Shown here in pieces: positions 35,980 through 48,691 of a stretch of 64,000 bases of DNA; position 1 is the first letter of the stretch, and every line of letters begins with the position of its first letter. A program made the position numbers and the translations under genes. The notes below the pieces were generated by a model. The model was not told the origin of the DNA. It saw only the letters and a list, made by a program, of their open reading frames with translations, and did no database searches. The DNA is from Candidatus Aquidulcis sp. Lineage in GTDB: Bacteria; Chloroflexota; Anaerolineae; UBA4142. The stretch covers positions 1 through 64,000 of the forward strand of contig DYJA01000006.1 of the NCBI GenBank assembly GCA_020723345.1, written 5' to 3'.

Positions 35980-36016
35980 GACCCTTCGGGTTTCCGAAAC
36001 CCGAAGGGTCTTTTTT
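35980..36016 (+). terminator. Terminator after the truncated duplicate
   Basis: GACCCTTCGGGTTT, loop CCG, AAACCCGAAGGGTC, TTTTTT. Confidence 0.85.
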
Positions 36017-36020
36017 GTGG

Positions 36021-36049
36021 TTGACGCGTTTTGGGGGATGAGGTAAAAT
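36021..36049 (+). promoter_or_regulatory. Promoter of the VapBC pair (duplicated)
   Basis: TTGACG, 17-base spacer, TAAAAT (36044-36049), nearly identical to 35241-35269. Confidence 0.7.
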
Positions 36050-36072
36050 ACGAGTATAAAGGGGAGGTCGCG

Positions 36073-36369
36073 ATGACAATAATGGTTCGCAAGCAAATCT
36101 ATCTCAAGAAACGGCAAGCCATCTCGCTCAAGCGTCAGTCACGCTCGCGCGGGATCAGCGAAGCCGAACTGATTCGCCAGGCAATTGATCACCAAATTGA
36201 CCGAGACCCGATGGAATCTTCGCACCCCGATCCTGCCGCGTGGGAAAAAGCACATAAATTCATGTTGGCGTTGCAAGCCGCTGGTCCTATCCCTGATCGT
36301 CCTCGTCGATGGACGCGCGAAGAACTCTACGAGGAGCGAATGAATCGCTATGCCCGCCACCCTCGTTGA
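36073..36369 (+). CDS. VapB-like ribbon-helix-helix antitoxin
   Basis: 98 residues. An N-terminal ribbon-helix-helix pattern (VRKQIYLKKRQAISLKRQSR, RGISEAELIRQAIDH) would bind operator DNA; the C-terminal part would wrap the toxin. GGGGAGG precedes the ATG at 36073; the frame is open further upstream but lacks a site. It overlaps vapC by 20 bases. Confidence 0.82.
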   Translation: MTIMVRKQIYLKKRQAISLKRQSRSRGISEAELIRQAIDHQIDRDPMESSHPDPAAWEKAHKFMLALQAAGPIPDRPRRWTREELYEERMNRYARHPR

Positions 36370-36799
36370 CACGAATATTCTCGTCTACGCCTATGATCGC
36401 GGCGAGTTCATCAAGCAACAACAAGCCATCCGCGTCCTTGAATTCTTGCAAGCATCCGGCGCTGGACGACTCAGTGTGCAATGTCTCGCCGAATTCTTTC
36501 GCGTTACAACCAAGGGAATATCGCCGATCCTACCTATTCAGCAAGCGAAAGAACAAACAGAAGCATTGGCACTTTCTTGGCAAGTTCTGAACGTGACGCC
36601 GCAGATTGTCTTGGAGGCAACGCGCGGCGTGCGTGATCATCAATTTTCATACTGGGACGCGCAAATCTGGGCAAGCGCGCGGTTGAATCAGATTCCATTG
36701 GTGTTGAGCGAAGATTTCCAAGATGGCGCGAATATCGAGGGAGTACGCTTTCTGAACCCATTCGCGCCGGAGTTTGAGATTCAGAAAATTATCGGATAA
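36350..36799 (+). CDS. vapC: VapC-like PIN-domain ribonuclease toxin
   Basis: 149 residues. PIN acidic residues are visible: Asp7 in LVDTNILVYAYD, a middle Glu in LAEFFRV, and the later Asps in SYWDAQIWA and LSEDFQDG. VapC toxins cut tRNA or rRNA with Mg2+. Coupled to the upstream antitoxin. Confidence 0.9.
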   Translation: MPATLVDTNILVYAYDRGEFIKQQQAIRVLEFLQASGAGRLSVQCLAEFFRVTTKGISPILPIQQAKEQTEALALSWQVLNVTPQIVLEATRGVRDHQFSYWDAQIWASARLNQIPLVLSEDFQDGANIEGVRFLNPFAPEFEIQKIIG

Positions 36800-36828
36800 A
36801 AGCCATACACGACGGACATCCAATCATC

Positions 36829-36990
36829 TTGTTGCCTGAAATTACCAAAGAGACAGATCTGAAACCCGGCGTCAAAGCGAAATTGCGGCGATCCATGGCG
36901 GCGGTTCGGCGCGGCGAACGCGGAATTCCTGCTAAACAAGTCGCCAAAGAGTTGGGATTGAAGTGGAAAAAAGACCTTCCAGGTTTTTAG
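36829..36990 (+). pseudogene. Remnant of a second antitoxin copy
   Basis: The frame reads LPEITKETDLKPGVKAKLRR and then SMAAVRRGERGIPAKQVAKE and LGLKW, followed by residues read through the terminator (KKDLPGF, TAG). It aligns with the C-terminal two-thirds of the antitoxin at 35301. The N-terminal third and any toxin are missing. It starts only from TTG codons without a good ribosome site, so it is likely dead or an orphan antitoxin. Confidence 0.6.
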
Positions 36991-37008
36991 AAACCTGGAA
37001 GGTCTTTT
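36971..37008. terminator. Terminator between the antitoxin remnant and the TPR gene
   Basis: AAGACCTTCCAGGTTT, loop TTAG, AAACCTGGAAGGTCTT, TTTC. Symmetrical, so it can end transcription from both sides. Confidence 0.8.
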
Positions 37009-38208
37009 TCATTTCCTCCGCGGCGTTGGACTGGGCGGGACTTCGCAGTGCTGCTGGTACCACGTCAGCGCGCCTTGCACTGCCGTATCTTGCGAATTGA
37101 CTTGGAGCGCTTTTTCGATCCACGGTCGCCCCTTGCCGCAATCCCTCAAGTTCACGTACGCGATCCCGAGTTTGTAAAAATACTCCAAGCGCGTTCCCCC
37201 AAGTTGAATCGCCTTTTCGAGATTCGTCACCGCGTCCTGCCAATTCTGCTGCACGAAATAGACGTGACCGAGATGCCCGTACGGCACTTCGTAATCCGGA
37301 TCCACTTCAATCGCTTTTTTGAGTTGCGCGATCGCGCGCGCCGAATCGCCGGAGAGCGAGTACGTCCAGCCGAGTTCGTCGTACACTTGCGGATCCTTCG
37401 GCGCGATTTTTTGCGCTTGCTGCAACGTCGCAATCGCGTCTTTGGAATTGTTCAAGATGCGATAGTTGCGCGCGAGATTGATGTACAGGTACGCCCATTT
37501 CGGACGAAGTTGCACCGCGCGCTGATACGCCGCCGTCGCGCCGCGATAGTTGCCGCGCGCTTCCTGGACATATCCGAGGTTGCGATGCGCGTCCGCGTTG
37601 TTGTCGTCCAACTGCACCGCTTTTTGCGCGGCAGGCAGCGCGCGCTCCGGACGATTCAAGTCGGCGTACACTTCGGCGACGACCGCCCACGCGCTCGCCG
37701 AGTTCGGCGTCAATTCCGTCGCGCGCAACGCGTAATCGAGCGCTTCGACGTAATTGCCTTGCCAATCGAGCGCCTCCGCGAGCGCGGTGAGATTTTCGGC
37801 GCGCTGATCGTTGATTTGCAGCGCGCGTCGCGCGGCTTTGACCGCGTCGTCCACTTTGCGTGACAAGATCAACGGTTTGACCAAGCGCGCGTACACCACG
37901 TCGTTGAGCGGTTCCAGCGCGAGCACCGCGTTGTATTCCGCAACCGCCGCGTCGAACTGCCCATCGATGAAGAGCGCGTCGGCACGCTGCAAACGCGTCG
38001 CCGCCGTTTCAGTCGGCGGAGGCGTGGGCGTCGCCGTCGGTTTGAACGAATCGGGGATTGGAATTTTTTCCGAAATGTAATGCCCGTTCGCCGCGAGCAT
38101 CAAGATCGCCAGGTACGCGCCGACGACAAGAATGAGCAGCGTCAAAAGGCAACCCTGCCACCACGGCGCGCCGTGTTTTTTCGGACCAATGTAAAGATCA
38201 ACCGGCAT
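37009..38208 (-). CDS. Membrane-anchored TPR protein
   Basis: 399 residues: a short cytoplasmic start, a membrane helix (LLTLLILVVGAYLAILMLAA), a Thr/Pro linker and then about eight TPR units from residue 68 (for example QFDAAVAEYNAVLALEPLND). The TPR part lies outside and would bind other proteins. It is downstream of the GT39 gene in the same direction with a 32-base gap, so they may form an operon concerned with surface glycans. Confidence 0.82.
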   Translation of the reverse strand: MPVDLYIGPKKHGAPWWQGCLLTLLILVVGAYLAILMLAANGHYISEKIPIPDSFKPTATPTPPPTETAATRLQRADALFIDGQFDAAVAEYNAVLALEPLNDVVYARLVKPLILSRKVDDAVKAARRALQINDQRAENLTALAEALDWQGNYVEALDYALRATELTPNSASAWAVVAEVYADLNRPERALPAAQKAVQLDDNNADAHRNLGYVQEARGNYRGATAAYQRAVQLRPKWAYLYINLARNYRILNNSKDAIATLQQAQKIAPKDPQVYDELGWTYSLSGDSARAIAQLKKAIEVDPDYEVPYGHLGHVYFVQQNWQDAVTNLEKAIQLGGTRLEYFYKLGIAYVNLRDCGKGRPWIEKALQVNSQDTAVQGALTWYQQHCEVPPSPTPRRK

Positions 38209-38240
38209 AGTCCAACTCCCTTATCCCATCTATCCCTTCT

Positions 38241-40262
38241 TCATTTCACCTGTACCATTCCCAGGATTAAATGATCGCCGCCGCCGACCGGCAAGCGCGC
38301 GCCATTGTCCGCGCGATACATCCCGATTTCGACGCGATAGGCGCCGGGCGGTATGCCGGGTTCGATGAAGATACCGTAGTTGTCCGCGACGATTTCACCG
38401 ACGCGCCACGTCGTCGTCGGGCGCAGATCGCCGACCGGTTCGCCGTCGCGCTGCGCGACGACTTGACCGTTCGCGTCGAGCAGATGCACGAAGACTTTGC
38501 CGCGCGCGTTCGGCGATTGCTCGACGCGCCAGTTCAGCGTCAACGTCAGCACGTCGCCCGTGCGAACCTCGCGCGAATCCAATTGATAATTTGCCAGCAC
38601 AATCGCGTCGCCGAAGCGCGCATCGAGTGTTTGCGGCGCGCCGCGCGCGTTCGGCGCGCTGCCGTAAACCGCGAGCCGAACATCGCCGCGCCACTCGTCG
38701 CGCGCTTTGAACGCGCGTTCCGCCAACCGCGTTTCGACGATGCGCTGCGGATCGCTCTGATCGGTCGACCAGTAAATTGCAAACAGTCGCTGCGTCTTGC
38801 CGATCATTTCGTCCACGTCGGCGCGCGTCGTGGTCGGATCGGGCGGACGCATGCGCGGCAACAAAAACAATGGCTGATTGCCGCGCCGATAATAGCGCAC
38901 GACGTCAATCTGCCCCGGCGCGTTGATCAAGATGCCGTCGCCCGCGCGTTCGTTCGCGTCGATGAAACGCGCGATCGCGCGGTAATCGTCGCGCGCGTAA
39001 CGCGGATTGAAATAATAATTTTCGAGCGACGGAAAAAAGCCAACCGCGACGACAATCGAAAACGCCCAAAAGAGATAACTCAACAGCGGCGCGGGACGCG
39101 GATACGCTTCGCCGCGCTCGAAAATGCCCGGATGGATCCGCGCCAAGCCGCGCGCAACGAGAATGAGAAACGCGGGCGTCGCGAGCAAAAGAAATTTTGG
39201 ATTGTACGCCGGACGCGAGAGCGAGATGACGTACATCGCGCCAATCGGAACGAGCGTCCACAAAATCAGCGTGACGATGCCCCAATCGGCGCGTGGTTTG
39301 CGCGCGCGCCACCAACCGATCAAAAACACAATGCCGAACACCAACGCGACACCTGCCGCCGTACCGTCGTCCACCGTCAAGCCGACGCTGAAAACGTTGA
39401 GCACGCGCCAGAGCAGCGTCGGCAAATCGAGCGGCTCGCTGATCGAGGGCCACGTCGCGAGTTGTCCACCGGCGAACAAGTACCAAGGAAGAAACGCGAG
39501 ACCGATGACTAGTTGACTGATCGACCAAGTGACCAATGAACGTATTGCGTGTTGCGTGTTGCGTGTTGCGACGAGCCACCAAATTGCAAACACGAGATTT
39601 TCCGCCAGCACGATGAACGCGCCGACGTACTGCGTGTACAGCGCGGCGAGAGTGGCGGCGATGTAGAGCAACCAAATTCGTAATTCGTAATTCGTAATTC
39701 GTAATTCAAAATTCGCAATTCGCAGTTCGCGTCTTGACCCTTCGACTTCGCTCAGGGCATGATTTTGAATTTTGAATTTTGAATTGCGGGTGAACATCTG
39801 CGCCATTGCCAGTACGGATATTGCGCTCCACAACGTCACCCAGATGTACATCCGCGCTTCTTGCGAGTAGTAAGCCTGGAACGGCGAGAGCGCGGTGAGA
39901 AACGCGGCAATGACCGCGACTTGTTCATCAAAGAACGCGCGCGCGACGCGGTACGTGACGGCGACGATCAGCACGCCGGCGATGACGGAGAGGAAACGTG
40001 TGGCGTATTCTGTATTGCCTACGAATGGCATCCAGAAATGCAAAAGCAAGTAGTACAGCGGCGGATGAATGTCGCGCGCCGCGCCATTGATGATCGCTTC
40101 GAGCGACAGCGACGACAGCGCGACGCTTGTTCCCTCGTCGTTCCACAAACTTTGCGCGCCAAGAAACGCCACGCGCAGCGCAAACGCGACAAAGAGCGCG
40201 ACGATCAGCCAGAAATAGTTTTTGTATTTGCGAATCAGAGGCGAGAAGAGTATTTTGCTCAC
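38241..40262 (-). CDS. GT39-like membrane glycosyltransferase with C-terminal beta domain
   Basis: 673 residues. About ten membrane helices with the ArnT/PMT-type loop LWNDEGTSVALSSLSLEAII, the DIHPPLYYLLLHFW motif and YYSQEARMY; these mark GT39/GT83-type enzymes that transfer sugars from lipid-linked donors outside the membrane. The C-terminal 150 residues form a beta-rich extracytoplasmic domain. Residues about 159-195 (NSKFKIQNHALSEVEGSRRE and following) are encoded by dispersed repeats. The first 35 residues are duplicated at 41165-41264. Confidence 0.85.
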   Translation of the reverse strand: MSKILFSPLIRKYKNYFWLIVALFVAFALRVAFLGAQSLWNDEGTSVALSSLSLEAIINGAARDIHPPLYYLLLHFWMPFVGNTEYATRFLSVIAGVLIVAVTYRVARAFFDEQVAVIAAFLTALSPFQAYYSQEARMYIWVTLWSAISVLAMAQMFTRNSKFKIQNHALSEVEGSRRELRIANFELRITNYELRIWLLYIAATLAALYTQYVGAFIVLAENLVFAIWWLVATRNTQHAIRSLVTWSISQLVIGLAFLPWYLFAGGQLATWPSISEPLDLPTLLWRVLNVFSVGLTVDDGTAAGVALVFGIVFLIGWWRARKPRADWGIVTLILWTLVPIGAMYVISLSRPAYNPKFLLLATPAFLILVARGLARIHPGIFERGEAYPRPAPLLSYLFWAFSIVVAVGFFPSLENYYFNPRYARDDYRAIARFIDANERAGDGILINAPGQIDVVRYYRRGNQPLFLLPRMRPPDPTTTRADVDEMIGKTQRLFAIYWSTDQSDPQRIVETRLAERAFKARDEWRGDVRLAVYGSAPNARGAPQTLDARFGDAIVLANYQLDSREVRTGDVLTLTLNWRVEQSPNARGKVFVHLLDANGQVVAQRDGEPVGDLRPTTTWRVGEIVADNYGIFIEPGIPPGAYRVEIGMYRADNGARLPVGGGDHLILGMVQVK
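39676..39787. repeat. Dispersed repeats in frame inside the glycosyltransferase gene
   Basis: Tandem TTCGTAATTCGTAATTCG units, a CCTTCGACTTCGCTCAGGGCA tag and TTTGAATTTTGAATT units occupy about 110 bases without breaking the frame. A further ACGCAACACGCAACACGCAAT-like tract (39543-39570) lies in the same gene. Confidence 0.75.
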
Positions 40263-40274
40263 GATTTCTCTGCG

Positions 40275-40691
40275 TTATTCTCGCCGCGCGCGCAATCGCT
40301 GAACTGTCGCGTCGTCAAGCAGATCGGTTTGCTGGGTGGGTCCGTCGAGGAAGAGCGCGAGTTTGTTGAGGACGTTGCGACCCAAGACGATTTCTTGCGC
40401 TTCTGGATCGGCGGCAACGACAACACCGGGCAAGCGAAGATCGCCTACCTGCATTTCCAGTAGGTAAATCGTGACGGGATGAATGTCGCCCCACTGCGTT
40501 TCGAGTTGACCGGGATTCAGCGGCGTCGCTTTGAGTTTGCGCGCAATCTCTTCTGGCACAATGGTTGCATCCGCGCCCGTATCCACGATGGCATCAAACG
40601 TTCCCAGCCACGGACGATCCTCACCATAGCCGAAAGTGACCTGGAGCACCGGCGCAGGAGGCGCGTAGTTGGAATCGTATGCAACGCTCAT
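40275..40691 (-). CDS. Retropepsin-like aspartic protease (clan AA)
   Basis: 138 residues with the single-lobe aspartic protease signature AIVDTGADATIVPEEIA and a later hydrophobic-Gly flap region (GLGRNVL-like: IVLGRNVLNKLALFL). Such proteins must dimerise to form an active site. It overlaps the upstream partner by 4 bases (ATGA). The pair (helical protein plus single-lobe protease) recurs as a mobile two-gene unit in bacteria and may behave like a toxin-antitoxin pair; this last point is inference. Confidence 0.82.
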   Translation of the reverse strand: MSVAYDSNYAPPAPVLQVTFGYGEDRPWLGTFDAIVDTGADATIVPEEIARKLKATPLNPGQLETQWGDIHPVTIYLLEMQVGDLRLPGVVVAADPEAQEIVLGRNVLNKLALFLDGPTQQTDLLDDATVQRLRARRE

Positions 40692-41059
40692 CGCTGACCT
40701 CCGCGTCGTCGCGCGCCAAGAATCTTGATGACTTGAACTGGCTCAGAAGTCACGGGCGTCATCAAAATCGGCTCATCGCCGTACCTGGCGCGGACGCGAT
40801 TGTGCAACGCTGCCAGATCAGCATCGTGGTCAATAACGATGCCGTCGCGCATCGCGATGTACTGCCCGGCGTATTGCGCGAGCAATTCAGAATGTTGCGC
40901 GCGAAAACGCGCGGCTTCTTCATTGATTTTCTCGCGTTTGACTTCCCAGAGTTGTTCTTCCAGCCAATCGTTCGCCAGCATCTCTACACTCGTATGCCGA
41001 CGCGCGGCTTCATTTTGCAATTGGTCAGCCAGGTTTGAACGTAATGGTACGGTAATCAT
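40688..41059 (-). CDS. Small partner protein of the aspartic protease module
   Basis: 123 residues. The N-terminus ITVPLRSNLADQLQNEAARR looks like a ribbon-helix-helix antitoxin. The second part (LAQYAGQYIAMRDGIVIDHD, then ARYGDEPILMTPV) resembles DUF5678-type domains. Start at 41059 with AAAGGA 8 bases upstream. Coupled to the protease gene. Confidence 0.7.
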   Translation of the reverse strand: MITVPLRSNLADQLQNEAARRHTSVEMLANDWLEEQLWEVKREKINEEAARFRAQHSELLAQYAGQYIAMRDGIVIDHDADLAALHNRVRARYGDEPILMTPVTSEPVQVIKILGARRRGGQR

Positions 41060-41111
41060 AGTTGTATCCTTTCTACCCAAGCAACGCGCGCTTGATCTGT
41101 CCGTTCAATCC

Positions 41112-41134
41112 GACCCTTCGACTGCGCTCAAGGC
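41112..41134. repeat. CCTTCGACTGCGCTCAAGGCA tag
   Basis: Member of a short dispersed family (CCTTCGACTNCGCTCAGG). Other copies: 3608-3630, 39738-39760, 42829-42848, and inside the larger palindromes. Confidence 0.55.
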
Positions 41135-41164
41135 AAGTCTTGTTCGTTGTCCTCTGTTCCACCA

Positions 41165-41264
41165 ACGCGACGCGCAACGCAAACGCGACGAAGAGCGCGA
41201 CGATCAGCCAGAAATAGTTTTTGTATTTACGAAGGAAAGGCGAGAAGAGTATTCTGCTCACTGG
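41165..41264 (-). pseudogene. Truncated duplicate of the glycosyltransferase 5' end
   Basis: Encodes SRILFSPFLRKYKNYFWLIV and ALFVAFALRVAL, matching the start of the GT39 protein (SKILFSPLIRKYKNYFWLIV). About 90 of 100 bases are identical to 40165-40264. The frame then runs into a repeat tag. The aspartic protease module lies exactly between the two copies. Confidence 0.8.
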
Positions 41265-41309
41265 CGTTGTCCGTTCAATCTGATGTTGTCTGTTGTCATT
41301 CCCCCGCAA

Positions 41310-42761
41310 CTATTGGGCGCAACGGAAACCGACGAGGCTGCTCCTATAGTCTGAACCGACAGCGAAGCGGCGCGCCGCGCGGACATTGCCCGTACCGTTG
41401 TCCCACGACCCGCCGCGCAGAACGCGCATTTGCCCCAATACTGGACCCGTCGGATCGCGCTGGGGTGAACTGGAGTAACTCCCGTACCAATCCATGACCC
41501 ATTCCAAAACATTGCCTGCCATATCCATTGCGACATACGGGCTTGCGGCAACAGGATAACTGCCAACTGCTGTTGTATCACCTCTCCCACCATCAGTCGA
41601 ATTGAGTAAGTTCTTGTCAAAAGTATTCCCCCACGGATATACTCTACCATCCATTCCACGCGCAGCTTTCTCCCATTGCGCTTCGGTTGGTACGCGCTTG
41701 TCTGCCCACGTGCAGAACATGTTTGCATCATTCCACGAAACGTAAATCACAGGATGGTTGTCGTACTGCGAACTATCGTAATACGAATCCCGCGTGAATG
41801 ATTTTTTCTCACGCGGCGGCTGGCATTTGCCGGCGCTAACGCATTTTTTGTACAATGCGTTTGTCACTTCAAACTTGTCAATCCAGAACGCGTCAAGGTA
41901 AACAGTATGCACCGGTTTTTCATCGCTCTCACCATCATTGCTCCCCATTGTGAATTCGCCCGCAGGTACGTACACCATCGTCGCGCCATCAATTGGAGAA
42001 ATCTTACTTGAGCCAATCCAAGGTGTCGGCGTCGGGGTTGGACGCGGCGTATCAGTTGGCTTGGGCATGACAGTTACCGTTGGGCTTGCTGTCTCTGTCG
42101 GTTTGGGCGAAATCGTCGGCGTATTTGTGAGAGCGACAATTGGCACGCTAGTCGTCGGCGCAATAACCGCAGCACGCGTCGGTGTTGCAGTTGGCTGGCT
42201 ATTCCAAATACTGTTTGCAATCGTGCCAAGTAAAATACACGCCACGACGACAACCACCACCACTGCCGCAACAGGCACAAACCAATTGGGGAGTGGTTGT
42301 GTGCGCGCTGGAACTGCTGGCGGAGCAACAAATGTTGGTCGCGGCTTGAGTGTTACGCCAAAACCTTTGGTCAACAACTCGTTCAACGCTGTCTGGTATG
42401 TACTTTCAGCAGACCAGCCAATAAAACTCACATAGAGTATATGTCGCAAACGCCGTGGCACATCACATTTCTCGGCTATTACTGGAATAATGTGCGGGCG
42501 ACCCTGTTCTTGGCGCATCATGATCGCCATATCAATTTCCCAGTCAGCCCAACGCGACTTGAGCGCAGCGGGCGAGAGCACAGGGATGTAGACATCACAT
42601 TGCTCCAACCCTTGCTCAATTCGCTTAGGAATACTTTCGCCAGGACGAACCGAACGCTCATCGAAAAACCCGTCCAGCCCGCTTGCGCGCAGATCATCGC
42701 ACAGTTTCCGCGCAAAATCAATGTCTTTCCACGAATGTGTGATGAAAAATTTTTGCGGCAT
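41310..42761 (-). CDS. TIR domain - membrane helix - FGE/C-type-lectin-like fusion
   Basis: 483 residues; start at 42761 with GGAGG 6 bases upstream. Residues 1-135 form a TIR domain ([18 protein letters not shown]; putative NADase Glu75 in [11 protein letters not shown]). A membrane helix follows at about 160-182 ([20 protein letters not shown]), then a Thr/Pro linker to residue 248. From about 250 is an FGE-sulfatase domain ([62 protein letters not shown]). The copper-binding Cys pair of true FGE enzymes is missing in the GGSW segment, so it is probably a ligand-binding fold outside the membrane, signalling to the TIR domain inside. Base composition is lower in G+C than neighbours. Confidence 0.88.
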
Positions 42762-42900
42762 CTTTGCCTCCAAAGCGGCAGTTGAAACTGCACCAACAAC
42801 TTCACCAAGTCTGCCTTCGCAGGCTTCCTTCGACTTTGCTCAGGATCAGCCGACGAAGGTCGGCTTCGTGCCCTTGTTGCTGCGAATTCATTCGCCCGCG

Positions 42901-44514
42901 TTACTTGACTAGAAATCCGTTGACCGCCACCGTCCCGCGCGTCACCGTGATCGTAACACGATGCTGTCCGCTTGGCAAACCGCGCGCCAGCGCAACGCGC
43001 CCGCCCGCGCTCGGATCCGTACGCCACAACTCAATCTCGCGCGGCGCGTCGTTGTCAACCTGCACGCGCACCGCGCCGCCGTACGGATTCTGCAACACCA
43101 CGAGATCAAGATCGCTCCCGCGCCAAACAAAACTCACACTGTCCAACTGTCCCACTGTCCCACTGCCACCACTGCCCTGCTTGTATTCCCCAAAATACGC
43201 GCGCGCGTCGCGCCGCGTCTCCCACGCGCCGCGCCAATCCATCGCCCAGTGACTCGTGCTGCGAAAACCGCGCTGGACGACGCGCGCGGTCGGCGTGTAC
43301 GCTTTCATCGTCGCGTACACCGGCATTGCCGTGAAATCCGGTTCGAACATTCGGAAATAGTAGAACGACTGGTTTTTCTCGCTATCGTTCACGCGCCGGA
43401 AAAACCAGTACATCATCGCGCCCATCCAGGGCCATTCCGTTTGCGCGCGCGCGTACGCTTGCGGCGTGTAGCGCGCTTGCCGCGCTTCGCTCACGCGTCC
43501 GTACGGCACGTCCTTGAACTCGGCGGGCTGTGTGTTCCACCCCATCTCCATCGCCCAGATCGGCGTGTGCGCGTCGCCGTTCCGCACCATGATCTCGCGC
43601 AGTTGAATCGGACGCGAAAAATTGATGCGATCATTTTCGTCCAAGCGCCGGTCGCCCGGACCCGAGAACAAGCCGTAATCCATCACCGCAAGAATATCGA
43701 AATAGCCGCGCGCGCCGGCATCGTACATTTGCTGCAAAAAAATTCGATCATTCAAACCGCGCCCGCCCTCTTCGACCGTCTGCGCGAGTCCGGCGCTGAT
43801 GATCACGCAATCGGGATCGGCTTGTTTTGCTCTTGTGTAACCGATTTTCAGCAAGCGCACGTACTCTTTCGGATTCACATCCTGCTCGCCCCACTCCGGA
43901 TAAATGTTCGGCTCGTTCCACAACTGATAAAACCGAATCTTGCCGCGATAACGATTGACGACCGTCGCGACGAAATCGCCATAGTCGTCGAAATTATCCG
44001 GCGGCGCGAAATCGCCGCGCGCGCGTCCGTCTTTGCGCGACCACGCGGGCGGATGATCGAGCCGCGCGACGATTTCCAAGCCGTACTCGCGCGCGAGTTC
44101 GACGATGCGATCGTACTTTTGCCACGCGCTCTTGCTGTACTTGGTATCCCAGTATTGCCCCTTGCTCGGCATCTCGATGTCTTCCCACGGAAATTCTTGC
44201 CGAATCCAGTGAAAGCCCGCGTCGCGAATCAGTTCGAGCGACTTGCGAATTTTGACTTCTTCGACTTCTTGTTCGAGAAAAACGTTGATGCCGAATGGGT
44301 TCACGTCGGTGTACTTCATCGGCGCGAAATCAGCGGTCTCGTGCGATTCCTGGATCGCGGCGAGCGCGAGATAGTACAGCCCTTTGATCTGCCACTCGGT
44401 ATCTTCTTCGCCGGTCCAATCGGCGAGCGATTGACCGATCGAATCGCGCGCGAGGAACGCGCCGAGCGCGAGCAAAAGGAGAATCAATGGAATGATGATG
44501 AGGAGACGTTTCAT
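42901..44514 (-). CDS. Membrane-anchored GH39/GH5-like glycoside hydrolase
   Basis: 537 residues. An N-terminal anchor or signal (LLIIIPLILLLLALGAFLA) is followed by a TIM barrel of clan GH-A: acid/base Glu201 in LWNEPNIYPEW and nucleophile Glu323 in AMEMGWNTQ. A C-terminal beta domain of about 120 residues closes the protein. The substrate is unknown; the similar layout to the second domain at 32373-35195 suggests related polysaccharide targets. Start at 44514; the ribosome site is weak. Confidence 0.85.
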   Translation of the reverse strand: MKRLLIIIPLILLLLALGAFLARDSIGQSLADWTGEEDTEWQIKGLYYLALAAIQESHETADFAPMKYTDVNPFGINVFLEQEVEEVKIRKSLELIRDAGFHWIRQEFPWEDIEMPSKGQYWDTKYSKSAWQKYDRIVELAREYGLEIVARLDHPPAWSRKDGRARGDFAPPDNFDDYGDFVATVVNRYRGKIRFYQLWNEPNIYPEWGEQDVNPKEYVRLLKIGYTRAKQADPDCVIISAGLAQTVEEGGRGLNDRIFLQQMYDAGARGYFDILAVMDYGLFSGPGDRRLDENDRINFSRPIQLREIMVRNGDAHTPIWAMEMGWNTQPAEFKDVPYGRVSEARQARYTPQAYARAQTEWPWMGAMMYWFFRRVNDSEKNQSFYYFRMFEPDFTAMPVYATMKAYTPTARVVQRGFRSTSHWAMDWRGAWETRRDARAYFGEYKQGSGGSGTVGQLDSVSFVWRGSDLDLVVLQNPYGGAVRVQVDNDAPREIELWRTDPSAGGRVALARGLPSGQHRVTITVTRGTVAVNGFLVK

Positions 44515-44595
44515 CGTGAGTATTTTACCACAAGTGTAACGAAACGTGCCAAACAAGCCAAATGTGCCAAACGCGCCAAATCAAGCGGATGCCAG

Positions 44596-44624
44596 TTGAC
44601 GCGTCCGCTGGTCTCGGATAGAAT
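44596..44624 (+). promoter_or_regulatory. Promoter of the methyltransferase/M48 peptidase unit
   Basis: TTGACG, 17-base spacer, TAGAAT (44619-44624); GGAGGAAAA follows just before the start codon. Confidence 0.6.
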
Positions 44625-44639
44625 CAGCGCGGAGGAAAA

Positions 44640-45464
44640 ATGACGCAAGACCTTCTGCGCGCCACGCGCGACATTTGGAACGAGAACGCCGATTTCTGGG
44701 ACGAACGCGGCGGCGACGACGGTCTGCCGATGCAGCGCGCGTTGATCGCGCCGATCACCGAACGCCTGCTCGATTTGAAACGCGGCGAGCGCGTGCTGGA
44801 AATCGCGTGCGGCAACGGCGCGTTCGCGCGACGAATGGCGGCGCTCGGCGCGCGCGTCGTCGCGTGCGATTTCGCCGAGACGTTCATCGAACGCGCTAAA
44901 GCGCGGACTACGAACAACGCCGTCGAGTACCGCGTGATCGACGCGACAGATGAAGCCGCGCTGCGCGCGCTCGGCGCGCAATCGTTCGACGCGGCGGTTT
45001 GCGCGATGGGAATGATGGACATGCCGGAGATCGAGCCGCTGCTGCGCGCGTTGAGTCAACTATTGAAACCGCGCGCGCGCTTTGTCTTTTCGATCATGCA
45101 TCCATGTTTCAACTCGACCGCTGGAATGAAGATGGTCGTCGAGCGCGAAGAGAATCGCGACGGCGAACTCGTCACCGTCCACGCGATCAAGATTTCGCAG
45201 TACGCGACGCCGACGACGTACAAAGGAACCGGCATCATCGGGCAGCCCGCGCCGCAGTACTATTTTCATCGCCCGCTGAACGCGCTGTTCGGCGCGTGCT
45301 TTCGCGCCGGTTTCGTTCTCGATGCGCTGGAGGAGCCGACGTACGACGCGCGCGCGCAGCCAAGTCGTCCGTTCAGTTGGGAGAATTATCACGAAATTCC
45401 GCCGGTGCTGATCGCGCGCGTGCAGTTGTCGCAGAACACGATTGGAACACAAGATGCCGATTGA
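44640..45464 (+). CDS. Class I SAM-dependent methyltransferase
   Basis: 274 residues. Motif I is VLEIACGNGAFARRMAALGA (about residues 51-70), with D in VVACDFAETF and a motif IV region FDAAVCAMGMMDM. It is a UbiE/type 11-like small-molecule methylase without an identifiable substrate. A short palindromic repeat (44893-44914) supplies part of the coding sequence around KARTTNN. It overlaps the M48 gene by 11 bases. Confidence 0.88.
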   Translation: MTQDLLRATRDIWNENADFWDERGGDDGLPMQRALIAPITERLLDLKRGERVLEIACGNGAFARRMAALGARVVACDFAETFIERAKARTTNNAVEYRVIDATDEAALRALGAQSFDAAVCAMGMMDMPEIEPLLRALSQLLKPRARFVFSIMHPCFNSTAGMKMVVEREENRDGELVTVHAIKISQYATPTTYKGTGIIGQPAPQYYFHRPLNALFGACFRAGFVLDALEEPTYDARAQPSRPFSWENYHEIPPVLIARVQLSQNTIGTQDAD

Positions 45465-46614
45465 TCCAGAACGCCAACGCCAAGCCAAAGAATACGCGCG
45501 CATCAGCCATCGTTTGCTCGCGCTCGATGTCGCGTTCAGCGCGCTCGTGATCCTCGCGGTGCTTGCGCTCGGAGTAAATGTGTGGCTCAAACAGATCGTC
45601 ATCGCGATTTCGAGCAACGTTTGGATCGCGACGTTCCTCTATTTTGCCGCCGGGTTCGTCGCGTACGAAGTGCTGTTCTTTCCACTTTCATATTACAGCG
45701 GCTTTGTGCTGCCGCATCGCTACGGACTCTCGACGCAAACGCTGCGCGCGTGGTTGATTGACGTCGCGAAAGGCGGCGCGCTCGGCATCGTGCTGGGCGG
45801 CATCGTGATCGAAGTGATTTACTTTGTGCTGCGGACTGCTCCGCCTCTCCCCCTGCTTGCGGGGGGAGTCGGAGGGGGGTCATCGTGGTGGCTGTGGGCG
45901 AGCGCGTTCATGATCGTGTTCAACATCCTGCTCACGAATCTTTCACCCGTGCTGATCCTGCCGATCTTTTTCAAATTCAAGCCGCTCGAAGACGCGGACC
46001 TCGTCGCGCGCTTGACCGCGCTGGCGGCGCGCGCCCACACGCGCGTGCGCGGCGTGTTTACGATGATGCTGTCGGAAAAAACGACGGAAGCGAACGCCGC
46101 GCTGATGGGCTTGGGGAACACGCGCCGCATCGTTTTGGGCGACACGTTGTACGACAAGTACACCCATGATGAAATCGAAACGATCCTCGCGCACGAACTG
46201 GGGCACCACGTCCATCGCGATATCGCGTGGGGACTCGTCGTCGAAACCGCATTGACGCTTGCCGGGTTTTTCATCGCCGATCTCTTTTTGCGCGGGAGCG
46301 TCGCGTGGCTCCATTACGAAAATATCGCGGACCTCGCCGCGATGCCGCTCTTTTCGCTCGCGCTCGGCGCGTTCGGCGCGGTGACGCTGCCGCTGGGCAA
46401 CGCGTTCTCGCGCTGGCGCGAATCGCTCGCCGACGCGTACGCGCTGGAGGCGACGCGCAACGCGTCCGCATTCATCGGCGCGATGGAAAAACTGGCGAAT
46501 CAAAATCTCGCGGAAGTCGAACCCGAACGCTGGGTCGAACTCTTGCTATACTCGCATCCGCCGATTGGCAAGCGGATTAAACAGGGTGAACGCTTTGCGA
46601 TGACAACCCAATAA
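45454..46614 (+). CDS. M48-family membrane metallopeptidase (Ste24/HtpX-like)
   Basis: 386 residues, several membrane helices and the zinc motif HELGHH at about residue 249, with the third ligand Glu in SLADAYALEATR. CAAX-type/Ste24 proteases cleave prenylated or membrane-quality-control substrates. A Gly/Pro stretch (APPLPLLAGGVGGGSSW, about residue 130-147) is encoded by a dispersed repeat. Translationally coupled to the methyltransferase and ended by a terminator. Confidence 0.9.
   Translation: MPIDPERQRQAKEYARISHRLLALDVAFSALVILAVLALGVNVWLKQIVIAISSNVWIATFLYFAAGFVAYEVLFFPLSYYSGFVLPHRYGLSTQTLRAWLIDVAKGGALGIVLGGIVIEVIYFVLRTAPPLPLLAGGVGGGSSWWLWASAFMIVFNILLTNLSPVLILPIFFKFKPLEDADLVARLTALAARAHTRVRGVFTMMLSEKTTEANAALMGLGNTRRIVLGDTLYDKYTHDEIETILAHELGHHVHRDIAWGLVVETALTLAGFFIADLFLRGSVAWLHYENIADLAAMPLFSLALGAFGAVTLPLGNAFSRWRESLADAYALEATRNASAFIGAMEKLANQNLAEVEPERWVELLLYSHPPIGKRIKQGERFAMTTQ
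45836..45889. repeat. CTCCGCCTCTCCCCCTGC palindromic repeat inside the M48 gene
   Basis: CCGCCTCTCCCCC and GGGGGGAGTCGGAGGGG form an imperfect inverted repeat, in frame, in a loop between two membrane helices. Confidence 0.55.
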
Positions 46615-46650
46615 GAAACACGCCCGGTTTCTGAATCGGGCGTGTTTCTT
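46613..46650. terminator. Terminator between the M48 gene and the Fe-S gene
   Basis: A perfect 14-bp stem AAGAAACACGCCCG / CGGGCGTGTTTCTT, 10-base loop. It overlaps the M48 stop codon and serves both convergent units. Confidence 0.8.
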
Positions 46651-46659
46651 ACTCTGCGT

Positions 46660-47211
46660 CTACTCGCGCCAGAACGAACTCGGCGCATCGTACTGCCCCA
46701 CCATTTCGACTAGCGTCGCGCGTTGCGCGGCGACCTCCGTATGCGCGAGCGCGCCACATTCGTCGATCTTGCGCCGCGCTTCGAGCAGCGCGAATGCGAA
46801 CGCCATGCACGTCGCTTCGCCGCACGCGCGGCAATTGGTCTGCGGCAGCAGCGCGTACACGTCGAGCGGACGCGGCGTGCGGCGCGCATCGCGGCGCGGC
46901 TGAATCGTCTCGCGCTGTTCCCAAGTTTGATTGAGTAAATCACGCACCGCGTTCAGTAACTCGATTCCTGCGTCCGCGTCTTGGACTTGCGTGATGAAAA
47001 TTTCATTTGCCTGCAACGTGATAAAGCCCGGCTTGCGCCGCAAGACGAGCACGCCCGCGCGCGGATTGTAACTGATCACGTTCGGCAGAATCGCGTTGAG
47101 CAGCGGAAAGACCGCGTCAATCGCGCCGGACGGTTTCCCCGCGACGACGATTTTGCCGGGCTCGGCGATGCACGGACGCGTGTGATCGAACGAGATGTAA
47201 TCAATAAACAT
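46660..47211 (-). CDS. Fe-S cluster-binding protein of the PF04060 type
   Basis: 183 residues. The C-terminal part holds the four-cysteine cluster motif LPQTNCRACGEATCMAFAFA with a later CGALAH, as in the putative Fe-S domain of corrinoid and RnfB-like proteins. The N-terminal part is an unclassified alpha/beta domain. It is the last gene of the ars-like operon, after a repeat; a link to arsenic metabolism is only positional. Confidence 0.78.
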   Translation of the reverse strand: MFIDYISFDHTRPCIAEPGKIVVAGKPSGAIDAVFPLLNAILPNVISYNPRAGVLVLRRKPGFITLQANEIFITQVQDADAGIELLNAVRDLLNQTWEQRETIQPRRDARRTPRPLDVYALLPQTNCRACGEATCMAFAFALLEARRKIDECGALAHTEVAAQRATLVEMVGQYDAPSSFWRE

Positions 47212-47217
47212 TGAGAT

Positions 47218-47293
47218 TCCGAAACGCCAAATGCGCCAAACGCGCGAGGAATTTGGTTTGGCAGATTTGGCACATTTGGTACTTTGGCGCGTT
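47218..47293. repeat. GCGCCAAA word repeat
   Basis: Facing words CGAAACGCCAAATGCGCCAA and TTGGTACTTTGGCGCGTTTG. Related words at 2391-2425 and 44542-44583. Confidence 0.5.
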
Positions 47294-47298
47294 TGTCT

Positions 47299-47613
47299 TT
47301 ACGCCGCTTTCAACTCGGCGAGACGTTCTTCCACGGCTTGGATCTCGGCTTTCAGATCCTTCAAGTACTCTTCCAACTGCGCGATCCGTTCCGCGCGCGT
47401 CGCAAAGCGGCGTTCGAATTTTCCGCCGCACTCGCACGCGTGTTCCCCACAATCGCAGCCGCCGTCATGATGTCCGTGATGCCCGCTGCCGTGACGTTCA
47501 CATTCGCATGCGTGCTCGTGACATTCGCAATCACACTCGCGGTGATGTCTGCCGTGCCGGTGGCGATGGCAGTCGCACTCGCCGCCGCAATGTTGTTCGT
47601 GACAGTGACACAT
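47299..47613 (-). CDS. His/Cys-rich metal-binding protein with C-terminal coiled coil
   Basis: 104 residues; AGGAGG lies 8 bases before the ATG at 47613. Residues 1-72 are packed with His and Cys in CxCH and CxCxxH patterns (MCHCHEQHCGGECDCHRHRH; CDCECHEHACECERHGSGHH), which would bind several metal ions or arsenite. Residues 80-104 are a short coiled coil (RIAQLEEYLKDLKAEIQAVE), which may oligomerise. No metallothionein family is recognised. It lies directly downstream of the permease in the ars-like operon, so metal buffering or delivery is a fair guess. Confidence 0.8.
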   Translation of the reverse strand: MCHCHEQHCGGECDCHRHRHGRHHRECDCECHEHACECERHGSGHHGHHDGGCDCGEHACECGGKFERRFATRAERIAQLEEYLKDLKAEIQAVEERLAELKAA

Positions 47614-47644
47614 TTTTTTCACCTCCTTCGAAAATATTTTCATC

Positions 47645-48691
47645 TCACATCACGAGATTGAACAGGTATCCGGTTAAGATAATCGCGATCCCCACCACGC
47701 CGATAAACACCGCGAGCAATTGCGGCTTCAACACGCGTCGCAAAATGATCGTCTCCGGCAAACTCAAACCGATGACCGCCATCATAAACGCGAGCGCGGT
47801 GCCGAGCGACGCGCCCTTTTCGATCAGCGCGGAGACAATCGGAATGATGCCTGCCGCGTTCGAGTAGAGCGGAATGCCGATCAACACCGCGACCGGCACC
47901 GACCACCACGCCGATTTGCCCATCACGTCCGCGAGCGCGTCCGTCGGCACGTAGCCGTGAATCCCCGCGCCAATCGCGATGCCGATCACGACGTACAGCC
48001 ACACTTTGCCGACGATGTCGCGCGTCGTGCTCGCGGCGCGCTGAACGCGCTCCTCCCAGGTCATCGCGGTCGCGTCGCCTGGCGCGGCTTGGAACTGCAT
48101 CTGCCACACAAAATCCTCGACCCAGCGCTCCAATTTCAGTTTGCCGATGATGATTCCCGCGATAATCGCAATCGTCAAACCCGAAGCGATGTACAACGCG
48201 GCGACGCGCCAGCCGAACAGTCCGAACAGCAGCACGACGGCGACTTCATTGATGACCGGCGCGGCGATCAAAAACGAAAACGTCACGCCGAGCGGAATCC
48301 CCGATTCGACGAACCCGATGAAAAGCGGCACCGCGCTGCACGAACAAAACGGCGTCACGATTCCCAACATCGCGGCAAGCACGTTCCCGATCCCAACGCG
48401 CTCGCTCCGCGCGCCGAGCAGTTGCCGCGTTCGCTCCGCGCTGAAGAATGTGCGAACGATCGTGATGATAAAAATCATCCCGCTCAGCAACAGCAAAATT
48501 TTTGGCACGTCGTACAGAAAAAACGCGACCGACTCGCCCAGGTGCGTCCCACGCTCGAATCGCAGCAGATCGAACGTGACGTACTCGGTCACGGGTTGCA
48601 GAAACGCGTACGCGACGTACCATGCGACTGCCGCGAGTCCGAGGATGAAAAATGTTTGAGTATTTCGTTCTGCGCTCGAGTCTTCGATCAT
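47645..48691 (-). CDS. DUF318/ArsP-like permease
   Basis: 348 residues, about ten membrane helices in two halves. The family motif TPFCSCSAVPLFIG is present. Relatives include ArsP, which exports trivalent organoarsenicals, and permeases paired with small CxxC thioredoxins like the one in this operon. Start at 48691 (MIEDSSAERNTQTF); the frame is open further upstream but runs antisense through another gene. Confidence 0.85.
   Translation of the reverse strand: MIEDSSAERNTQTFFILGLAAVAWYVAYAFLQPVTEYVTFDLLRFERGTHLGESVAFFLYDVPKILLLLSGMIFIITIVRTFFSAERTRQLLGARSERVGIGNVLAAMLGIVTPFCSCSAVPLFIGFVESGIPLGVTFSFLIAAPVINEVAVVLLFGLFGWRVAALYIASGLTIAIIAGIIIGKLKLERWVEDFVWQMQFQAAPGDATAMTWEERVQRAASTTRDIVGKVWLYVVIGIAIGAGIHGYVPTDALADVMGKSAWWSVPVAVLIGIPLYSNAAGIIPIVSALIEKGASLGTALAFMMAVIGLSLPETIILRRVLKPQLLAVFIGVVGIAIILTGYLFNLVM

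Follow-up and report, generated by a model that had tools for sequence, protein, structure and literature searches.

A TIR–membrane helix–FGE-fold protein of Candidatus Aquidulcis, probably descended from targets of a diversity-generating retroelement

The stretch of 64,000 nucleotides analysed here (the window; assembly GCA_020723345.1, contig DYJA01000006.1, positions 1 to 64,000) belongs to the Chloroflexota bacterium Candidatus Aquidulcis sp. and contains a gene whose product joins a TIR domain, through a membrane helix, to a domain with the FGE fold, a fold that an earlier note on this DNA named as a frequent target of diversity-generating retroelements (DGRs). The locus raises the question of whether this protein has the makings of a surface receptor and whether its putative binding surface is, or once was, rewritten by such an element. 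The best explanation, to which a probability of about 0.62 is assigned, is that it derives from a surface TIR receptor once diversified by a DGR and has since become frozen.

The gene is an intact open reading frame on the minus strand encoding 483 amino acids, with an ATG at 42761 preceded by GGAGG at 42767-42771, and its product is organized as follows.

41310-42761, minus strand: protein of 483 residues with TIR domain, membrane helix, Ser/Thr/Pro-rich stalk and FGE-fold domain (open reading frame and Pfam)
42384-42749, minus strand: TIR domain, residues 5-126 (Pfam TIR_2, E 4e-26; PDB 3h16, 7uxr, 8g83 AbTIR)
42537-42539, minus strand: codon of Glu75 (E75), the candidate NADase glutamate (alignment of 12 relatives; alignment with AbTIR and 3h16)
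42204-42281, minus strand: single membrane helix, residues 161-186, with positive charges on the TIR side (hydropathy, charges, AlphaFold)
41988-42203, minus strand: Ser/Thr/Pro-rich stalk, residues 187-258, mostly predicted to be disordered (AlphaFold, composition)
41316-41984, minus strand: FGE/C-type-lectin-like domain, residues 260-482 (Pfam FGE-sulfatase, E 3e-55; model pLDDT 93)

The receptor-like layout claimed in the earlier note, with one membrane helix and a Thr/Pro stalk, is supported, the four elements following one another in the order given above. Residues 161-181 form the sole strongly hydrophobic stretch of the protein (mean Kyte-Doolittle value of 2.97) and lie within a helix predicted by AlphaFold at 161-186; Ser, Thr and Pro account for 38 of the 70 residues that follow this stretch, and low model confidence between residues 186 and 245 points to disorder. 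Since inspection of the sequence revealed no hydrophobic stretch at the N-terminus and the positive charges precede the helix, a topology with the TIR domain inside and the FGE domain outside the cell is likely, as predicted from hydropathy, charge and one low-confidence full-length AlphaFold model, poor in its FGE half; the TIR-side charge bias is weak in some relatives. The resemblance to an innate immune receptor proposed previously holds for the layout but not for the order of the domains: the protein begins with its TIR domain and ends with its ectodomain, whereas in an animal Toll-like receptor the order is the other way round. Both are single-pass proteins with a cytoplasmic TIR domain and a ligand domain predicted outside, and the window TIR model resembles the TIR domain of Hydra TRR-2; the ectodomains, however, are non-homologous, with Pfam and AlphaFold showing an FGE domain C-terminal to the helix of the window protein instead of leucine-rich repeats N-terminal to it, so that the likeness is one of analogy only.

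The candidate NADase glutamate put forward for the TIR domain was confirmed as E75, a residue that does not vary among 12 relatives and that occupies the alignment position of the conserved glutamate in AbTIR and 3h16. In such bacterial TIR domains the equivalent glutamate is catalytic. A TIR domain lacking its catalytic pocket had been regarded as grounds for abandoning the proposal, and E75 is present; the window TIR has the fold and the conserved glutamate of a TIR-domain NADase and may also possess the activity. The likeness to the NADases AbTIR and 3h16 and to Thoeris ThsB lies in this fold and glutamate, while the window protein differs from them in being fused to an ectodomain and in having no ThsA-type partner among the neighbouring genes tested.

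Modelled alone with 58 relatives, the FGE domain reached a pLDDT of 93, and its model matched FGE (Z 29), the Treponema denticola DGR variable protein TvpA (PDB 2y3c, Z 28.5) and, at about 14, Mtd and TaqVP. TvpA shares with the window protein the FGE-type C-type-lectin (CLec) fold and a C-terminal variable loop, while its solved chain has no TIR domain. The C-terminal CLec/FGE-fold variable domain expected of a DGR variable protein is present in the window protein. Missing from it, as the earlier note had claimed, is the copper Cys pair: sequence and profile alignment against the C-x4-C of 'GGSYLCHDSYC' in the FGE enzyme 6muj found, in place of the GGS(Y/W)-x-C-x4-C loop, a variable loop that is shorter. 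Nor did the domain prove to be a standard enzyme with both cysteines elsewhere, the counter-possibility raised at the time, there being no pair at the copper-site positions. The strong match to FGE in sequence and fold would suit an ordinary membrane-tethered enzyme, whether formylglycine-generating or sulfoxide-synthase-like, but such a role is scarcely credible, given that the Cys pair is missing in all aligned relatives, that the active-site loop is the hypervariable one and that relatives have the equivalent loop targeted by DGRs. The absence of the pair led to the rejection of an enzymatic role for the domain.

The evidence that receptors of this kind are DGR targets comes from the relatives. 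Among 99 related genomes, full-protein relatives were found in those labelled G001, G003, G004, G008, G009, G010, G031 and G066. In G008 and G003 the order of genes is receptor, reverse transcriptase (RT), Avd and template, and in G001 it is receptor, Avd and template, with no RT in cis. Template and receptor differ at 15 of 32 adenines versus 1 of 87 other positions in G001, 16/34 versus 1/85 in G008 and 15/34 versus 0/77 in G003 (Fisher, about 1e-9 each); the DGR RTs carry the motif LPIGNLTSQFW, and the Avd proteins of G001 and G008 score above the NCBIfam Avd cut-off. At the G001 locus (L129, G001:C168, 3792-4529), variable region, Avd and template are kept without an RT, while RTs sit on other contigs of that genome (C253 and C182), which suggests either that RT is supplied in trans or that it was lost very recently. 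The membrane forms of C129, G009, G004 and G010, which have no obvious cis DGR, matched none of the templates compared, a part of those genomes' set. Of 396 genomes from the class, 14 have close relatives of the window TIR and helix segment; because 10 of the 14 belong to the window's own family, the TIR-FGE proteins are a family-level expansion in which membrane and soluble forms stand side by side, and the two forms are intermixed in a poorly resolved tree of TIR domains.

The earlier note had suggested searching the window's own genome (G000) for a reverse transcriptase and for a template repeat matching the 3' end of the gene at 41310-41420, of which only the former was found. There are four DGR RTs, all with the LPIGNLTSQFW motif; the small genes adjoining them read as Avd, that on C66 matching Pfam bAvd, and three of the four have Asn-rich short copies of the FGE C-terminus next to them. 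Template A (C66) differs from the adjoining NACHT-FGE gene at 19/30 adenines and 1/92 other positions and, in trans, from a soluble TIR-FGE gene on C107 (C107a) at 18/30 and 1/92. Template B (C116) differs from a DUF4062-NACHT-FGE gene on C100 at 14/31 and 0/96 and, again in trans, from a soluble TIR-FGE gene on C102 (C102a) at 22/33 and 0/98, and for template C and a DUF4062-NACHT-FGE gene on C128 the counts are 19/28 and 2/88 (Fisher, 1e-10 to 1e-17 across these pairs). For the fourth DGR, on C9, the template match is shorter and falls at the end of C43. With RTs, Avd and templates that diversify TIR-FGE paralogues in this genome, and membrane-form relatives that are targets as well, the idea that FGE folds serve as DGR targets was upheld.

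In two independent DGRs of this genome (C66/C107 and C116/C100/C102), one template serves both a NACHT-FGE gene and a distant TIR-FGE gene (L056, L062, L057, L070, L061). Contigs C9, C43, C100, C116 and C128 start or stop near DGR RT or variable-region genes. The receptor layout also occurs with other signalling domains, as nSTAND1, membrane helix and FGE on G000:C70 (L064) and as protein kinase, membrane helix and FGE on G000:C66 at 209 kb (L065), neither of which matched any of the templates compared.

At the window locus itself, comparison with G001, which is of the same genus, reveals what remains of the element.

41310-41426, minus strand: homologue of a DGR variable region, aligned base for base with the G001 template (mismatches at 19/32 adenines versus 16/85 other positions, p 6.5e-5)
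41331-41402, minus strand: hypervariable codons, residues 454-477 (dN 0.75 / dS 0.36 against the G001 syntenic gene)
41180-41262, minus strand: 82-bp duplicate of the 5' end of a PMT_2 gene, 93% identical to 40181-40262 (sequence comparison with G001)

The window is syntenic with G001:C168, with about 80% nucleotide identity over 3.1 kb and shared flanking genes, and has a deletion of about 0.8 kb at the position of the G001 Avd and template; the 82-bp duplicate is a probable scar of DGR loss. Two A-only pattern scans (118 and 96 nt, at most 3 mismatches) found no template for the window gene in the assembly, a criterion under which three known targets recovered their own templates, and tblastn found neither RT nor Avd in 36001-48000. 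An adenine-restricted template, the mark of a DGR target, accompanies the G001, G003 and G008 relatives as well as C107a and C102a and is lacking for the window gene, which is filed as a descendant of targets and not as a current target because there is no template in the assembly.

The variable region nevertheless bears the footprint of such a past. It is 70.8% identical to the G001 template versus 63.1% to the G001 variable region, and the excess of mismatches at template adenines (listed above) has no counterpart in the reverse test (p 0.23). Between the window gene and its G001 counterpart, dN/dS is 0.75/0.36 in the variable region versus 0.24/1.34 in the FGE core and 0.20/1.64 in the TIR domain, a ratio of about 2 in the former and 0.2 elsewhere. 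In the hypervariable columns of 12 membrane forms, codons ending in C or T make up 80% versus 50% elsewhere, and 72% versus 43% when fourfold codons are considered (p 1e-4). This excess was absent from a small control set of FGE sequences from other phyla, and in the loop codons of the own-genome DGR targets and other FGE genes, both small groups, the fourfold-site excess was not significant. The several tests of the footprint draw on sequences that are related to one another and so are not wholly independent.

FGE loops vary generally and the window gene is without a template, so that ordinary surface-loop divergence, with no DGR history at the locus, might be thought sufficient; it is very unlikely, given that the syntenic G001 locus retains an Avd gene and a template that matches at all non-adenine positions but one, and that the codon footprint is absent from the small control set. 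The main rival account of the history of the gene is that it is still being diversified, by a template and an RT that lie outside the assembly or persist in strains keeping both. Indeed, the assembly is 95.5% complete and split into 132 contigs, several of which stop at DGR genes, the G001 locus, with an Avd gene and a template but no RT of its own, makes supply in trans plausible, and trans targets do occur in the window's own genome. Continued diversification is nonetheless an improbable alternative, as the two scans that found no window template sat beside three known targets that found theirs, and the window has a deletion where the syntenic template would sit. On this comparative evidence, the window gene probably encodes a receptor that was once diversified and then frozen.

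If the protein works as its layout suggests, the FGE/C-type-lectin-like domain would be held outside the cell on a flexible stalk and would bind a ligand through the surface formed by its C-terminal loop. Binding would cluster the receptor, and the cytoplasmic TIR domains brought close together would cleave NAD+ or make a nucleotide signal, so that the cell stops growing or dies, possibly in defence. In the lineage, the RT and Avd of the DGR would copy the template with random changes at adenines, and the mutated copy would overwrite the 3' end of the receptor gene, creating a new binding surface. The receptor of this genome would have lost template, Avd and RT and kept a single fixed surface, whereas the genome still contains DGR templates that match others of its TIR-FGE and NACHT-FGE genes.

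The main rival on the side of function is a surface adhesion protein or environment sensor, responding to particles, kin or surfaces and signalling through the TIR domain, instead of a defence receptor. Cellular DGR targets are widely membrane-anchored and tied to cell–particle and cell–cell binding (PMC8144416), a membrane-helix kinase and an Ig-like protein of the window's own genome bear similar FGE domains, and no defence gene was found by Pfam among the seven neighbouring genes of the window (37009-46614). On the other hand, a TIR domain with an intact candidate catalytic glutamate and the NACHT-FGE co-targets of shared templates both resemble conflict systems proposed in PMC10907252 and PMC8195603; this alternative function is possible but doubtful. 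Membership of a Thoeris system was rejected, as Pfam detected no ThsA (SIR2/SLOG-type) among the same seven genes. Just downstream of the receptor, at 40275-41080, lie a DUF5678 gene and a gene with a retroviral-type aspartyl protease domain, the latter kept at the syntenic G001 locus.

Fusions of DGR-diversified FGE/CLec sensors to conflict effectors, TIR among them, have already been described (PMC10907252, PMC7159879, PMC8195603, PMC7517822), and in a global survey cellular DGR targets were often membrane-anchored (PMC8144416). The systems of Thiohalocapsa PB-PSB1 (PMC10907252) and the VMAP and STAND-FGS systems (PMC7159879, PMC8195603) resemble the proteins described here in that a C-terminal FGE/CLec domain containing a DGR variable region is attached to conflict effectors, one of which is TIR, and also in having trans targets and multiple DGRs per genome. 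As described in the available sections of these papers, they are mostly linked to STAND, vWA or MoxR, with the TIR-bearing DGR 2 target predicted to be cytoplasmic; in the window protein, by contrast, a single membrane helix and a stalk connect the TIR domain directly to the sensor, and there is no NTPase. Cyanobacterial DGR variable proteins likewise carry a TIR-like domain on a C-terminal CLec variable domain but are mostly predicted to be cytosolic, and the available part of that report (PMC7517822) does not describe a TIR, single helix and stalk arrangement. While DGR-diversified TIR-lectin proteins are known, the single-pass membrane layout is apparently new: no earlier report of a DGR target with TIR, single helix, stalk and FGE was found in the open-access literature, taken as main texts without supplements, where a stray mention is possible.

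One small protein thus joins immune-type TIR signalling, a membrane helix and a ligand domain that is diversified in relatives by targeted mutation. It may be, as a tentative proposal, that these Chloroflexota carry a Toll-like surface receptor with an extracellular loop rewritten in advance by a retroelement and a TIR NADase output, beside soluble TIR-FGE and NACHT-FGE sensors that share templates, the window copy being one whose specificity was fixed by loss. If function follows layout, this would be a minimal bacterial surface receptor with anticipatory diversity and, at about 480 amino acids and with no NTPase, a simple test case for DGR-made binding surfaces wired to a cell-death output. 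The window gene would also illustrate how a diversified receptor is frozen through the loss of its retroelement.
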